A stretch of 64,000 nt of DNA from Thermoanaerobacter ethanolicus JW 200. GTDB lineage: Bacteria; Bacillota; Thermoanaerobacteria; Thermoanaerobacterales; Thermoanaerobacteraceae. Of this stretch, positions 1,949-10,278 are shown piece by piece. Location of the stretch: positions 1,425,001 through 1,489,000 of the forward strand of contig NZ_CP033580.1 of the NCBI RefSeq assembly GCF_003722315.1. Direction: 5' to 3'. The notes under the pieces are model-generated. The model did no database searches and was not told where the DNA came from. It was given only the letters and a program-made list of their open reading frames with translations. Position 1 is the stretch's first letter. The number at the start of each line of letters is the position of its first letter. Both the position numbers and the translations under genes were made by a program.

Positions 1949-3532
1949 ATGAGAAAATTTATTATATTATCTTTCATTTTGATGTTTATTTTTACAGGAT
2001 GCAAAACTACTCCGCAAAATATGGTAAATTTACCTCAAGCATCTGAGGACAAAACTAAGATTGAAGAAGAAAAGCCAGTAGAGGGTGGCACTTTAAGAGT
2101 AAATATTACTTCTTTTGATACATTAAATCCTTTTTTGAATGACAATGAGAGAGTAAGGCAAATGTTAAATTTGTCATTGGAAGGATTAGTTACCTTGGAT
2201 AAAACTTTAAAACCTATTCCTCAATTAGCAGAAAACTGGCAGATAAATGGACTTAATATAAAATTTTATTTAAAAAAGAATGTTAAATGGCAGGATGGAG
2301 TAAGTTTTACAGCTAATGATGTAAAATTTACTTTTGATTCTTTTAAAAATAAGGATGTAAAAAGTCCTTATAGGGATATTCTCATTAACTATCTCTCCTC
2401 TTATAAGACAAATGGTGATTATGAATTTGAAGTTGTTTTAAATAAACCTGTTGCAAATCCAATAGCTTTGTTTACTTTTCCTATTCTAGCTGAGCACCAA
2501 TATAAAGGTAAGGAAGATATTTTAAATAAAGATATTGTACCTATTGGTACAGGGCCATATAAGATATCTTCTTACAGCGTTGGCAGAGAAATTATTTTTG
2601 AAAGAAATCCTTATTATAGAGGCGACAAACCTTATATAGATAGTATAGTGTTTAAAATTGTGCCTGATGAAAATGCTATGATAACATCTTTTCAAAGCAA
2701 AGAAGCAGATTTTACTTTTTTAAGTGACATAGACTGGGATAAATACAAAGAGATTTCAAACGTAAATATTTATAAATACGTTATGCAAGATTATGTATTT
2801 ATGGCCCCTAATTATCAAAAGCCAGCTTTGAAAGATTCAAATGTCAGGAAAGCGATGTGTTATGGAATAGATGTTGACAAAATTTTGAGAGATGTATATT
2901 TCAGTCATGGGTTAAAGTCATGTATTCCCGTTCGCCCTGATTCGTGGCTTTATAGCAATAAAATAGTATCTCATAATTACGATATAAAAGAGGCAAATAA
3001 AATATTAGAGGAAAGTGGTTGGAATTTAGTTAAAGGGATAAGGAGCAATGGAACTTATCAGCTCAAATTTGATTTGCTGGTAAATGCAAATAATCCATAT
3101 TTGATTAAAGTTGCTCAAATTATAAAGAATAATTTAAAAGATGTAGGAATTGAAATAAACATTGTACCAAAAGATTGGGGCAATTTACTAAGTTCTGTAT
3201 ATTCGGGTAAATTTGATTTGGTGTTAATGGAGTGGAATTTAAGTTATAATCAAGATATGTCTACAATGTTTATGACAAAAGGCAAAGACAATTTTATGGG
3301 TTATAGTAATTCTAAAGTTGATGAAATATATAGTAGAATTTTTTATGATTCAGAAGAGAATTCTTTAAAAACAGATTATCAGGCTTTGGAACAAGTTTTT
3401 TTAGAGGAACAACCCATAATTGGCCTTTTCTATATTGAAGGAGCAGTTATGGCATATGACAATGTAAAAGTTGTGGACCCTACTGGATTTAATGTTTTTA
3501 ACAATATAGAAAAATGGTATATCAAAAAATAG
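1949..3532 (+). CDS. Peptide-type ABC transporter substrate-binding lipoprotein
   Basis: This 527-residue protein starts with a lipoprotein signal peptide ending in the lipobox FTGC (Cys18). The rest is a family 5 extracellular solute-binding domain of the OppA/DppA type, with LAENWQINGLNIKFYLKKNVKWQDG and IGTGPYKI segments. It should bind peptides or similar solutes at the outer membrane face and deliver them to an ABC permease, but no permease gene is adjacent. It begins 20 bp after pncB. The substrate cannot be told from sequence alone. Confidence 0.88.
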   Translation: MRKFIILSFILMFIFTGCKTTPQNMVNLPQASEDKTKIEEEKPVEGGTLRVNITSFDTLNPFLNDNERVRQMLNLSLEGLVTLDKTLKPIPQLAENWQINGLNIKFYLKKNVKWQDGVSFTANDVKFTFDSFKNKDVKSPYRDILINYLSSYKTNGDYEFEVVLNKPVANPIALFTFPILAEHQYKGKEDILNKDIVPIGTGPYKISSYSVGREIIFERNPYYRGDKPYIDSIVFKIVPDENAMITSFQSKEADFTFLSDIDWDKYKEISNVNIYKYVMQDYVFMAPNYQKPALKDSNVRKAMCYGIDVDKILRDVYFSHGLKSCIPVRPDSWLYSNKIVSHNYDIKEANKILEESGWNLVKGIRSNGTYQLKFDLLVNANNPYLIKVAQIIKNNLKDVGIEINIVPKDWGNLLSSVYSGKFDLVLMEWNLSYNQDMSTMFMTKGKDNFMGYSNSKVDEIYSRIFYDSEENSLKTDYQALEQVFLEEQPIIGLFYIEGAVMAYDNVKVVDPTGFNVFNNIEKWYIKK

Positions 3533-3535
3533 GTA

Positions 3536-3564
3536 TTGACACTGACCTAAAAAGATTATATAAT
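3536..3564 (+). promoter_or_regulatory. Consensus sigma-A promoter before tRNA-Leu fragment
   Basis: TTGACA at 3536-3541 and TATAAT at 3559-3564 are separated by 17 bases, a perfect vegetative promoter. It fires into the tRNA-Leu-like 5' fragment at 3594. Confidence 0.88.
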
Positions 3565-3593
3565 TCATAGTGTGACGAAATTAAATAAAGCGT

Positions 3594-3635
3594 GCGGTGG
3601 TGGCGGAACTGGCAGACGCGTACGTTTGGGTGTAT
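3594..3635 (+). pseudogene. tRNA-Leu 5'-half fragment
   Basis: The sequence reads as acceptor strand GCGGTGG, TG at positions 8-9, D-arm GCGGAACTGGCAGACGC, and an anticodon stem GTACG with a six-base loop TTTGGG, one base short. The variable arm, T arm and a matching 3' acceptor (CCACCGC) do not follow in register. It therefore looks like the 5' half of a tRNA-Leu gene broken at the anticodon loop. The adjacent complete tRNA-Leu has a different acceptor stem, so this is not a simple duplication of it. Confidence 0.6.
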
Positions 3636-3686
3636 GACTATTCAGTGATGGATATTTTAATTGAAATGATTAATAGGTTTGCCACC

Positions 3687-3716
3687 TTGACAAACGAGTT
3701 AAGTGAGCAGTATAAT
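3687..3716 (+). promoter_or_regulatory. Consensus promoter of tRNA-Leu(GAG)
   Basis: TTGACA at 3687-3692 and TATAAT at 3711-3716 are 18 bases apart, and the mature tRNA begins 11 bases after the -10 box. The intact tRNA therefore has its own promoter, independent of the one at 3536. Confidence 0.85.
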
Positions 3717-3726
3717 AAAAACGCAG

Positions 3727-3814
3727 GCGGGCGTGCTGGAATTGGCAGACAGGCATGTTTGAGGGGCATGTGAGAGATGATCTCGTGTGGGTTCAAGTCC
3801 CACCGCCCGCACCA
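3727..3814 (+). tRNA. tRNA-Leu(GAG)
   Basis: Acceptor strands GCGGGCG and CGCCCGC pair fully, followed by A and encoded CCA. The anticodon stem CATGT/GCATG closes the loop TTGAGGG, giving anticodon GAG, which reads CUC and CUU. A long variable arm (class II tRNA) and a GTGGG-TTCAAGT-CCCAC T arm complete a normal leucine tRNA. Confidence 0.95.
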
Positions 3815-3827
3815 TAAATAAAAGAGA

Positions 3828-3856
3828 AAAGAGGCGTTAAGCCTTTTATTTTTTTG
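3828..3856 (+). terminator. Terminator after tRNA-Leu
   Basis: An AAGAGGC/GCCTTTT hairpin with a five-base loop is followed by a T-rich run. Confidence 0.75.
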
Positions 3857-3983: not shown

Positions 3984-5181
<1,198 letters not shown>

Positions 5182-5314: not shown

Positions 5315-5340
5315 AAGACAAAAGGACAAAATATGCAATC

Positions 5341-5450
5341 TTGCCGAATCCGAAAGGTACGGAGGAACCGCTTTTTGGGGTTAATCTGTAGCTTTAAGCT
5401 GCAGTAGGGATACCTTCTGTCCCGCACCCGACAGCTAACTCCGGAGGCAA
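5341..5450 (+). ncRNA. c-di-AMP riboswitch (ydaO/yuaA class)
   Basis: The leader carries the conserved ydaO elements in order: CCGAATCCG, CGGAGGAACC, GGGGTTAATCTG, a variable hairpin (TGTAGCTTTAAGCTGCA), GGGATACCTTCTGTCCC, then CACCCGACAGCTAACTCC. TTGCC at 5341 pairs with GGCAA at 5446 to close the aptamer. This class senses c-di-AMP and normally turns expression off. The start codon of the downstream cell-wall hydrolase follows only 20 bases after the aptamer, with no intervening terminator, so control may act on translation. Confidence 0.92.
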
Positions 5451-5469
5451 TAAAGGAAGGAGATTTGCA

Positions 5470-6393
5470 GTGGATCAGCGAATAGGAAAGATGATTTTTG
5501 GAATTTCTGTGTTTGGTGCGACGCTGATTGGTAGCTCTTTTTTGAACCCAGCGTTTGCGGAAGGATTGGGAGTTGGAAAGATTACAGGCAATTATGTAAA
5601 TGTGCGGACTCAAGGAAGCTTATCAGGAAGTGTCATTGCCCGCTTAAATTGGAATGACACAGTGACTGTGTTAGATAAGGAAAACGGGTGGTACAAGATA
5701 AAGCTTTCTGATGGAAGAGAAGGATGGGTTTTTGGTGAATATTTATCCGTAAGAAATTCTTCTAATGTCTCAAGAGGAGATTCGGAAAAAGCAGCAAGTG
5801 TTGGTATAGTGACAGGTAGTTACGTTAATGTGAGAAGTGAAGCGGGTTTATCTGGCAGCGTTGTAGCACAGCTTAACAAGAATACTACAGTGAATGTGTT
5901 GGGTAAACAAAATGGGTGGTATAAAATAAAGCTTTCGGACGGAAGAGAAGGATGGATTTACGGAGAATACTTAGCAGTGAGGAGCTCTTCAAGTATCTCA
6001 AGGGGTGAAGTAGATAGGAGTTTGATAGATAAGTTAATAGATTTTGCCAAGTCTTTTGTGGGGACTCCTTATGTCTATGGAGGTTCAACTCCAAAAGGAT
6101 TTGATTGTTCCGGCTTTGTTCAATATGTTTTCAAGAATGTAGGTATTAATTTACCAAGAACGGCAAATGAGCAAGCTACTGCAGGAGAATATGTAAGTTA
6201 TAACAATCTTCAACCAGGAGATTTGGTATTTTTTAAAACTTTAGGAAGCAGTGTGATAAATCATTCAGGAATATATATAGGTAATGGTGAGTTTATACAA
6301 AGCTCTTCAGGTAGAGGGAAGGTCATAATAAGTCCTTTAAACGAAGGGTATTATAAAGAACATTATGTTACAGCAAGAAGAATTATAAAATGA
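5470..6393 (+). CDS. Secreted SH3b-NlpC/P60 peptidoglycan endopeptidase
   Basis: This 307-residue protein starts at GTG after GGAAGGAG. A signal peptide ends near AFA-EG (about residue 31). Two bacterial SH3 repeats follow ([19 protein letters not shown] and [19 protein letters not shown]), then an NlpC/P60 domain with the catalytic Cys in [11 protein letters not shown] and a His in INHSGIYIG. It should cut stem-peptide bonds in the wall. The c-di-AMP riboswitch just upstream links its level to wall or osmotic state, a well-known association for this gene type. Confidence 0.93.
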
Positions 6394-8366: not shown

Positions 8367-10278
8367 GTGCGCCCGGCATGGGCGATAACTAGGCGGTGAA
8401 AGTCCGCTGTGGGCTTGGTAGTGGGAACCACTAGCCAAGAGCAAGGGTGTCCATCGTGAGGTGGAATCTGAAGGAAGCTTAAGGCAAAATCTCGGTCTGA
8501 TGAACAAGAACCAGATAAGAGGCTGAATTGGGATGGATGAGTTTGCGTAACAAAACGAAGTCCAACACTACCCGAATCCCATACAGTAAATCTGGCAGAT
8601 ATATGAGATGAAAGTTATCGTTCTTACCCGGGGAGGTCTCAAGGATAAGTCATGGAAGTAAAATCTGAAGTGACAACCCATGCAGTGATGTATGGCTGAA
8701 CCTTGAGAAGTCAGCAGAGGTCATAGTACTTATCTAGACAATAATAGATAAGGAAGGACCGAACGTTAGGAGGTTTTGGAAATCTTATGGACTCGAAAGA
8801 TATGCAGAGACTGCAGACAACTCAACCAAGAGGCTATCCGTTGAATAGAGAAATGGAATTTCAAAAGACAACGGAAGTGCATAGTATATCATCGGCGTCG
8901 GAAGATGGAAGAAACGAGGTACAAAGATATACCGGCAAGATGCTTGAAATGATAGTAGAACGAGGGAACATGGAAGCAGCATACAAGCGCGTTGTTGCAA
9001 ATAAAGGAAGCCATGGAGTCGATGGGATGGGAGTAGATGAACTTCTACCGTATCTCAAAGAAAACTGGGCAACCATAAAACAACAACTGCTGGAGGGGAA
9101 ATACAAACCACAACCAGTGCGAAGAGTAGAAATTCCCAAACCTGATGGAGGAAAAAGACTACTAGGAATACCTACAGTACTAGACAGACTAATACAACAA
9201 GCAATAGCCCAAATACTAAATAAAGTCTACAACCATACATTTTCTGATAGCAGTTATGGATTCAGACCAGGACGCAGTGCAAAAGACGCAATAAAAGCCG
9301 CAGAAGCATACATAAATGAAGGATACACATGGGTTGTAGATATGGACTTAGAAAAGTTCTTTGACAGAGTAAACCACGACGTAATAATGTCCAAACTAGA
9401 AAAGCGGATAGGGGACAAAAGAGTACTAAAGTTAATACGAAGATACTTAGAATCAGGAGTAATGATAAACGGAATCAAAATATCAACAGAAGAAGGGACA
9501 CCCCAAGGAGGGCCATTAAGTCCCCTATTAGCAAACATAATGTTGGACGAACTAGACAAAGAACTTGAGAAACGAGGGCATAAATTCTGCCGATATGCAG
9601 ATGACTGCAACATATATGTAAAAAGCAGGTCTGCAGGAAACAGAGTAATGAAGAGCATAAAGAAATTCATAGAAAGCAAATTAAAACTAAAAGTCAACGA
9701 AGCAAAAAGTGCTGTAGATAGACCATGGAGAAGAAAATTTCTTGGATTTTCATTCTATACAAAAGAAAACGAAGTAAGAATAAGAATCCATGAAAAATCC
9801 ATCAAAAGGTTTAAGGAAAAAGTAAGAGAAATAACCAATCGGAACAAGGGAATAAGCATGGAAAACAGAATAAAAAGACTAAATCAAATAACAACAGGAT
9901 GGGTCAACTATTTTGGATTAGCAGACGCGAAAAGCATAATGAAAACCCTTGACGAATGGATAAGGCGAAGACTAAGGGCATGTATATGGAAACAATGGAA
10001 GAAGATAAAAACGAAGCATGATAACTTAGTAAAACTAGGAGTAGAAGAACAAAAAGCCTGGGAATACGCCAATACAAGGAAAGGCTACTGGAGAATATCC
10101 AATAGCCCAATCCTAAATAAGACTCTTACAAATAAATACTTTGAAAGCATAGGTTATAAGAGTTTATCCCAAAGATATCTAATTGTACACAATTCCTAAT
10201 GAACCGCCGTATACCGAACGGTACGTACGGTGGTGTGAGAGGACGCTGAATAAAATAATTATTCAGCTCCTACTCGAT
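8367..10278 (+). mobile_element. Group IIC intron, copy 1 (intact)
   Basis: The element starts GTGCGCCCGGC and ends CTACTCGAT, the boundaries of class C (Oceanobacillus-type) group II introns. Domain I has the CAAGGGTGTCC and GGAATCTGAAGGAAGC segments. Domain V lies at about 10200-10242 (ACCGCCGTATACC, GGTACGTACGGTGG) and is followed by a short domain VI. A 470-residue maturase ORF sits in domain IV. The length is 1912 bp. It lies just after the typA terminator, and its 3' end replaces the last codon of the convergent transglycosylase gene. Confidence 0.95.
8787..10199 (+). CDS. ltrA: Group II intron reverse transcriptase/maturase
   Basis: This 470-residue protein has the RT fingers/palm (KPDGGKRLLGIPTV, SSYGFRPGRSAKDA, TEEGTPQGGPLSPLLANIML) with catalytic YADD at residues 270-273. 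The maturase/thumb region follows (RRKFLGFSF, then ITTGWVNYFGLAD). No endonuclease domain follows, as usual for class C. It should help the intron splice and copy it into new terminator sites. It is the only intact one of three copies in this window. GTTAGGAGG precedes the ATG. Confidence 0.95.
   Translation: MDSKDMQRLQTTQPRGYPLNREMEFQKTTEVHSISSASEDGRNEVQRYTGKMLEMIVERGNMEAAYKRVVANKGSHGVDGMGVDELLPYLKENWATIKQQLLEGKYKPQPVRRVEIPKPDGGKRLLGIPTVLDRLIQQAIAQILNKVYNHTFSDSSYGFRPGRSAKDAIKAAEAYINEGYTWVVDMDLEKFFDRVNHDVIMSKLEKRIGDKRVLKLIRRYLESGVMINGIKISTEEGTPQGGPLSPLLANIMLDELDKELEKRGHKFCRYADDCNIYVKSRSAGNRVMKSIKKFIESKLKLKVNEAKSAVDRPWRRKFLGFSFYTKENEVRIRIHEKSIKRFKEKVREITNRNKGISMENRIKRLNQITTGWVNYFGLADAKSIMKTLDEWIRRRLRACIWKQWKKIKTKHDNLVKLGVEEQKAWEYANTRKGYWRISNSPILNKTLTNKYFESIGYKSLSQRYLIVHNS

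Follow-up and report, generated by a model that had tools for sequence, protein, structure and literature searches.

The tRNA-Leu(GAG) locus of Thermoanaerobacter ethanolicus JW 200 very probably preserves the remains of a lost prophage: a temperate phage with a large serine integrase would have split the host tRNA-Leu(GAG) gene at a TG in its anticodon loop, supplied a spare tRNA of its own, and later disappeared, leaving the attL junction, the tail of its integrase gene, and its tRNA. The locus lies near the start of the window, the whole stretch of 64,000 nucleotides that was analysed (contig NZ_CP033580.1, positions 1,425,001 to 1,489,000 of the forward strand; genome G000 in the comparisons below).

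In the window, a tRNA-Leu 5′ half ends after the TG of the anticodon loop (U33–G34, numbering by eye), and a complete tRNA-Leu(GAG), the sole tRNA reported there by ARAGORN, starts 98 bases past the break (Table 1). A sequence-only reading of this DNA had described a consensus promoter ahead of the fragment and of the intact tRNA, a break at the anticodon loop, and a coding appearance of the stretch in between. Both promoters are present (TTGACA/TATAAT, 12/12), the break has been confirmed, and the frame MDILIEMINRFATLTNEL is open (ORF 3597–3773) from the fragment through the spacer into the tRNA. The relic reading frame in the spacer, for which the same reading had proposed a search, consists of the C-terminal codons of a phage integrase. 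The promoter and fragment together (3530–3628) are 97–100% identical to the corresponding part of the complete tRNA-Leu(GAG) gene in the sister genomes G001, G002, G005, G007, and G008; because of this match to sister tRNA-Leu genes, and because the open frame is that of a phage integrase C-terminus, a chance origin of the arrangement is dismissed.

Table 1. Features of the tRNA-Leu(GAG) locus, in window coordinates
Feature	Positions	Strand	Basis
Original promoter of the host tRNA-Leu(GAG)	3536..3564	+	TTGACA/TATAAT 12/12, 17-nt spacer; same promoter precedes the intact native tRNA-Leu in sister genomes
5′ fragment of the original host tRNA-Leu(GAG), 35 nt, cut within the anticodon loop	3594..3628	+	449-base identity with G041 back from ..TTTG
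TG core dinucleotide, putative crossover point common to attB, attP, and attL	3627..3628	+	TG at the same place in five attL scars and two phage attP; centre of the attP inverted repeat
Right half of phage attP (attL junction)	3629..3648	+	GGTGTATGACTATTCAGTGA versus phage GGTGTACGACTACTCAGTGA
Stranded 3′ end of the phage serine-integrase gene (WVYDYSVMDILIEMINRFATLTNELSEQYN..)	3627..3773	+	94% identity to residues 85–115 of the phage C-terminal query
Phage promoter of the replacement tRNA, within integrase codons	3687..3716	+	12/12, 18-nt spacer; also 12/12 in L060 2915–2944
Replacement tRNA-Leu(GAG), phage-derived by its match	3727..3814	+	ARAGORN; 87/88 nt identical to the L060 phage tRNA
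Phage-to-host DNA transition stretch CCGCACCA	3807..3814	+	Phage-type acceptor strand before; host flank after, identical to G041 for 100 bases from GCACCA
Host tRNA terminator stem-loop, then T run	3829..3847	+	Same flank behind the native gene in G041

Further along the window, an inverted-repeat-rich stretch (about 3985–4110, by eye) separates the tRNA-Leu from an ORF on the reverse strand (4102–5181) that presumably encodes an IS30-type transposase. A c-di-AMP riboswitch (5332–5464, 98.9 bits) precedes ORF 5470–6393, whose product we take to resemble SH3/NlpC-P60 cell-wall hydrolases, and a group II intron (8450–10278, three Rfam matches) lies just after a typA-like gene, with an internal ORF (8787–10199) resembling an intron-encoded protein.

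The locus was searched in 41 genomes and then in 20 genomes of the family, the strain comparison that the sequence-only reading had called for. Fifteen of the 20 family genomes carry one tRNA-Leu(GAG) with its native 3′ half, and five (G000, G006, G010, G011, and G014) carry the fragment, the spacer, and a different tRNA-Leu(GAG), with the exact TTTG junction common to all five scars. G041, listed as belonging to the species of the window, matches G000 at 1499 of 1500 upstream bases, including an unbroken run of 449 bases back from the anticodon-loop TTTG, and is identical to it over 100 downstream bases from GCACCA onward; between these flanks lies the native 3′ half in G041, and the spacer with the foreign tRNA in G000. 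With one intact tRNA sharing the promoter and 5′ half of the fragment, the G041 locus is the empty site. The displaced native 3′ half was not found elsewhere in G000 among hits down to an E value of 0.004; beyond the locus, these hits were three complete tRNA-Leu genes (CAA, TAG, and CAG) and one other place within the tRNA cluster that contains the CAG gene. In the native locus of G001 (L182), a tandem repeat, TCCGCACCATAAATAAA, is seen at the end of the tRNA-Leu(GAG) gene.

The source of the spacer and of the intact tRNA is indicated by phage contigs. A pattern derived from the intact tRNA matched one IMG/VR contig, IMGVR_UViG_3300033616_000032 (L060), in which the last codons of a recombinase gene are homologous to the window spacer and are directly followed by a tRNA-Leu(GAG). 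This tRNA agrees with that of G006 at 88 of 88 positions, and its promoter, located inside the integrase tail, is the second promoter of the window. The integrase open frame of L060 comprises 592 residues, of which 572 were used in comparisons, and continues into the tRNA, like the frame in the window. The protein contains an N-terminal resolvase domain (PF00239), a recombinase domain (PF07508), and a zinc ribbon (PF13408), the domain set of large serine integrases. A second contig, IMGVR_UViG_3300010263_000085 (L173), has the same layout, with a tRNA-Leu(GAG) behind int; its integrase has 551 residues, is 64% identical, and ends in ...FTESLDTCAYDYSVIDIINQFASFNKQIA. Both integrases match a PHROG integrase family, and a neighbouring protein in L060 matches terminase large subunits. 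By these matches, the spacer and intact tRNA are phage-derived, and from the tRNA and tail match we infer the hosts of the two contigs.

The empty site in the same species, the junction common to five genomes, and the two phage contigs in which an integrase tail adjoins a tRNA-Leu(GAG) thus support the proposal made from the sequence, the scar of an element integrated at a tRNA anticodon loop. What the proposal had missed is the assignment of the two tRNAs: the intact one is that of the phage, and the fragment is what is left of the gene that the host had originally. The same assignment bears on the simplest alternative, that a tandem tRNA-Leu duplicate decayed and left a 5′ half. Two tRNA-Leu-like sequences do stand in tandem, but 15 other family genomes have one native gene each, the fragment corresponds to the native gene while the intact copy matches that of the phage, the spacer is integrase code, and all five scarred genomes break at the same point. 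The case named as a refutation, a full tandem tRNA in simple decay, was not seen among the 20 family genomes. Tandem decay is rejected as having practically no probability. Selection on the 5′ fragment as a functional small RNA or regulatory leader would fit the perfect promoter that precedes it, but that promoter is simply the native tRNA promoter, and taken by itself the fragment shows no notable fold (z +1.30), making this explanation very unlikely. As for the second suggestion of the sequence-only reading, a source of a tRNA-fragment RNA, the first promoter may give rise to a leader transcript.

Behind the native tRNA-Leu(GAG) of G012 (contig C25, L181, about 9280–9640), approximately 340–365 bp of extra phage-like DNA stop within a phage gene after its first codons (MSKTKVSKIVK), and this DNA is read as leftover material of a second type at this site. 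It is also relevant to the proposal that the spacer and tRNA form a small cassette moved in trans by the integrase, rather than the remnant of a whole phage. That proposal would account for the same minimal structure recurring in five genomes with no attached phage seen, but the structure has one attachment site only and is part of int in both phage contigs, and the phage-like DNA retained beside the tRNA-Leu of G012 comes from the region beyond the tRNA of the phage; it is accordingly considered extremely improbable, and the remnant of a whole phage is preferred.

An intact prophage with both ends, or an attR, was not found in the genome sets searched, which overlap; the attR junction is predicted. 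A search with the integrase C-terminus among 398 relatives (E ≤ 1e-5) returned only the G000 and G006 tails and was not exhaustive, because the divergent known tails of G010, G011, and G014 were missed. Integrase-profile searches yielded four matches in 37 genomes of the class (E ≤ 1e-60), with no tRNA in those loci, and one match in 398 genomes of the phylum (E ≤ 1e-90), in G038, where the frame of the integrase relative ends before the tail and no tRNA is present at the locus. Of 113 integrase loci on genome contigs, the best 80 were scanned with ARAGORN; three of these contained tRNAs, none of them a tRNA-Leu(GAG), and the nearest plasmid relative (OY725838.1, 43.6%) has no tRNA within the 9.6 kb examined. 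In viral contigs, a peptide-only search gave no confirmed relative, and an alignment search gave L060, L173, and the distant L190, which is without a tRNA. All 14 records returned by a phage-collection search owed their match to the tRNA portion of the query alone, and the C-terminal protein portion had no match in that collection.

Several candidates were set aside. The viral-contig match L174 was dropped by eye (11 ARAGORN tRNAs, no tRNA-Leu(GAG)), L195 is apparently a chance pattern match with no tRNA and no integrase among its ORFs by eye, contig C467 of G018 has related terminase-region genes but no tRNA, and in the faecal record L236 a tRNA-Leu(GAG) and a distant recombinase match face each other about 700 bp apart, a different layout. 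Another large serine recombinase of approximately 500–515 residues was observed at eight loci (L066 and L090, both in G000, and L064, L065, L067, L070, L076, and L078); it is faced by a tRNA-Met/Met/Leu(TAA) cluster in seven of them, with none found by ARAGORN at L066.

Comparison of the two phages with the five scars places the exchange at the TG common to attP and the anticodon loop. The att sites of large serine integrases are roughly symmetric around a central dinucleotide that is shared by attP and attB, and the attP sites of L060 and L173 are each centred on the shared TG. The inverted repeat around this TG has 13 of 22 (L060) and 14 of 22 (L173) symmetric positions, against means of 6.1 and 6.4 (sd 2.1) over the integrase gene; such symmetry is not unique, as L060 has two further centres with a score of 14 and L173 has one further centre that equals the 14 found at the TG. 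The attP sequence codes for FTES..YDYSVID of the integrase; the TG exchange point lies in integrase codons, and attP is therefore located inside int.

In all seven sequences, the TG opens a TGG, TGT, or TGC codon, so that joining it to the A of attB gives TGA. The lysogen integrase is thus predicted to end in ...FTESTDR or ...FTESLDT, and this product would retain 544 residues from the 592-residue open frame of L060. Over 20 hand-aligned codons of the tail, with a 4-codon insert removed by hand and a length difference that keeps the frame, L060 and L173 differ at 3, 3, and 15 first, second, and third codon positions, respectively. This third-position excess is weaker or absent in comparisons involving G010 and G011 (L060/G010: 5, 5, 11; L060/G011: 6, 5, 13; L173/G010: 7, 3, 7; L173/G011: 8, 5, 10; G010/G011: 6, 5, 9), and the tail is read as coding and partly also constrained as attP. 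In an AlphaFold model of the 572-residue L060 integrase, which is of modest quality (12 sequences, mean pLDDT 71.7, pTM 0.45), the cut after residue 544 falls in a low-confidence stretch (541–548) between a helix and a separate last helix (549–571), so that trimming would remove the terminal helix, and the trimmed integrase is probably a working enzyme.

These features suggest a further idea, which we regard as doubtful: the integrase may trim itself, in that the free phage would encode a tailed enzyme and the TGA of the lysogen, composed of the TG core and the A of the host GAG anticodon, would remove the C-terminal helical tail exactly at the crossover, the tail marking the unintegrated state and biasing the reaction towards integration. 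If true, self-trimming would link the control of direction and the rescue of the tRNA to attachment within a single compact module.

The favoured history, loss of a whole prophage, would have proceeded as follows. The attP in the 3′ part of int would have recombined at the TG core with the anticodon loop of the host tRNA-Leu(GAG), splitting the host tRNA in two, and the loss would have been covered by the complete tRNA-Leu(GAG) that the phage carried, with its own promoter, directly behind int; integration would also have placed this tRNA approximately 160 bp downstream of the host tRNA promoter. When the window genome was scanned with a pattern, the tRNA at 3727–3814 was the one GAG-type Leu site with zero mismatches, the scan being no better than its control at two mismatches; tRNA-Leu genes with anticodons CAG, TAG, and CAA are present elsewhere in this genome. 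The prophage would then have been lost when the 3′ end of the phage tRNA recombined with the displaced host 3′ half, either within the chromosome or with incoming empty-site DNA (curing by transformation is an idea from PMC12637031), and either route gives the same product, in which attL is followed by the integrase tail stranded there, then by the phage tRNA, and from CCA onward by host DNA. The empty site, attL, the phage source of tail and tRNA, and the host flank behind CCA can be read from the sequences themselves, and from this arrangement we infer the integrated prophage stage, the route of its loss, and the need for the tRNA.

The right breakpoint lies within 8 shared bases and not in the longer shared T-arm stretch just before. 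A crossover in the T-arm would mispair one acceptor position in all five scars (for G010, the native strand of a neighbouring genus served as a stand-in), which may explain the absence of T-arm breakpoints; selection for a paired acceptor stem may explain the position of the breakpoint. The native tRNA-Leu(GAG) of genus g1 (e.g., L179) has an acceptor stem, GCGGTGG/CCTCCGC, with a U–U mismatch, and the acceptor stem of the phage-supplied tRNA-Leu(GAG) is fully paired.

Behind the CCA, the DNA is of host type, matching relatives, in four of the five scars (G000, G006, G011, and G014). The flank of G000 is 99% identical to G041 over 98 bases, the match ending near the transposase region, and that of G006 is 97% identical to G041 over 696 bases and lacks the four bases immediately behind CCA that are present in both G000 and G041. 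The flank of G011 is 93% identical to G018 over 701 bases and 92% identical to G013 over 700, and the flank of G014 is 74% identical to G017 over 708 from the first base, with a weak 49-base match to the phage flank. G010 is the sole genome of its genus in the comparison, and its near flank gives terminator-like matches only, with family DNA resuming about 1.5 kb further on.

How many integrations the five scars represent was considered on a tree of a typA-like gene from the 20 family genomes. The scars need five changes on this tree, at least three of which are forced by supported branches; randomly permuted labels require a similar number (mean 4.6), so the scars show no clustering. G000, G006, and G041 lie close together, and the spacers of G000 and G006 have bases in common that are absent from L060, so that these two scars may represent one event. 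A broader alternative, that integrations were fewer than scars, a single scar allele or a small number of them having spread between strains by homologous recombination and G041 having regained the native allele, is plausible enough to keep in view while being the less probable account. It is favoured by the shared spacer bases and by the closeness of the G000 and G006 flanks to that of G041; Thermoanaerobacter and natural competence are also named together in abstracts. Against this, each 5′ fragment matches the type of its own genus, G006 lacks the four post-CCA bases common to G000 and G041, the flank of G011 is nearest to G018 and G013 and that of G014 to G015 and G017, the spacers of G010 and G011 are strongly different, and the changes forced on the tree remain at least three.

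The lasting consequence of such prophage loss is that the host's gene can be permanently supplanted by a phage tRNA, apparently on more than one occasion within a single family. The closest counterpart is the tRNA-dependent lysogeny of actinobacteriophages (Guerrero-Bustamante & Hatfull, mBio 2024, PMC10865867), in which the integrases belong to the tyrosine family, with cores of 8–17 bp (Table 2 of that paper); in its text, "serine" occurs once, in the introduction. As in that system, attB overlaps a host tRNA gene, here at the anticodon loop, the core is short, and the tRNA is not rebuilt, the attR side being predicted in the present case. In contrast, the enzyme here is a large serine integrase with a putative 2-bp core, attP lies inside int, the tRNA lies directly behind int, and the tRNA outlives the prophage. 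Because the published description of tRNA-dependent lysogeny includes a tyrosine integrase, the present system is a variant and not a member as defined, and it indicates that tRNA-dependent lysogeny extends to serine integrases and beyond the actinobacteria. Prophage Lj965 of Lactobacillus johnsonii, another Firmicutes case, is similar in that its tRNA is reportedly not rebuilt and a cognate tRNA is present in the prophage (PMC10865867).

Among the matches listed in a search of the open-licence PMC literature, no serine integrase with attP inside its own gene was found, and none with attB in the anticodon loop of a tRNA gene. A serine integrase with its attachment site inside its own gene provides a compact attP–int–tRNA module of possible use in thermophile genetics, and this module could serve as a test of whether integration changes the integrase. 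The suicidal (SSV-type) integrases, tyrosine recombinases that are said to be exclusive to archaea (PMC8371274), likewise have the attachment site inside the integrase gene, target a tRNA, and have their gene split upon integration; there, however, the gene is split into inactive parts, whereas the serine recombinase described here is predicted to lose its C-terminal tail only. As with the tRNA-gene fragments left by integrating elements (PMC9897764), a tRNA fragment marks the integration, but in the present locus it is the fragment that represents the original gene, and the complete copy is of foreign origin.
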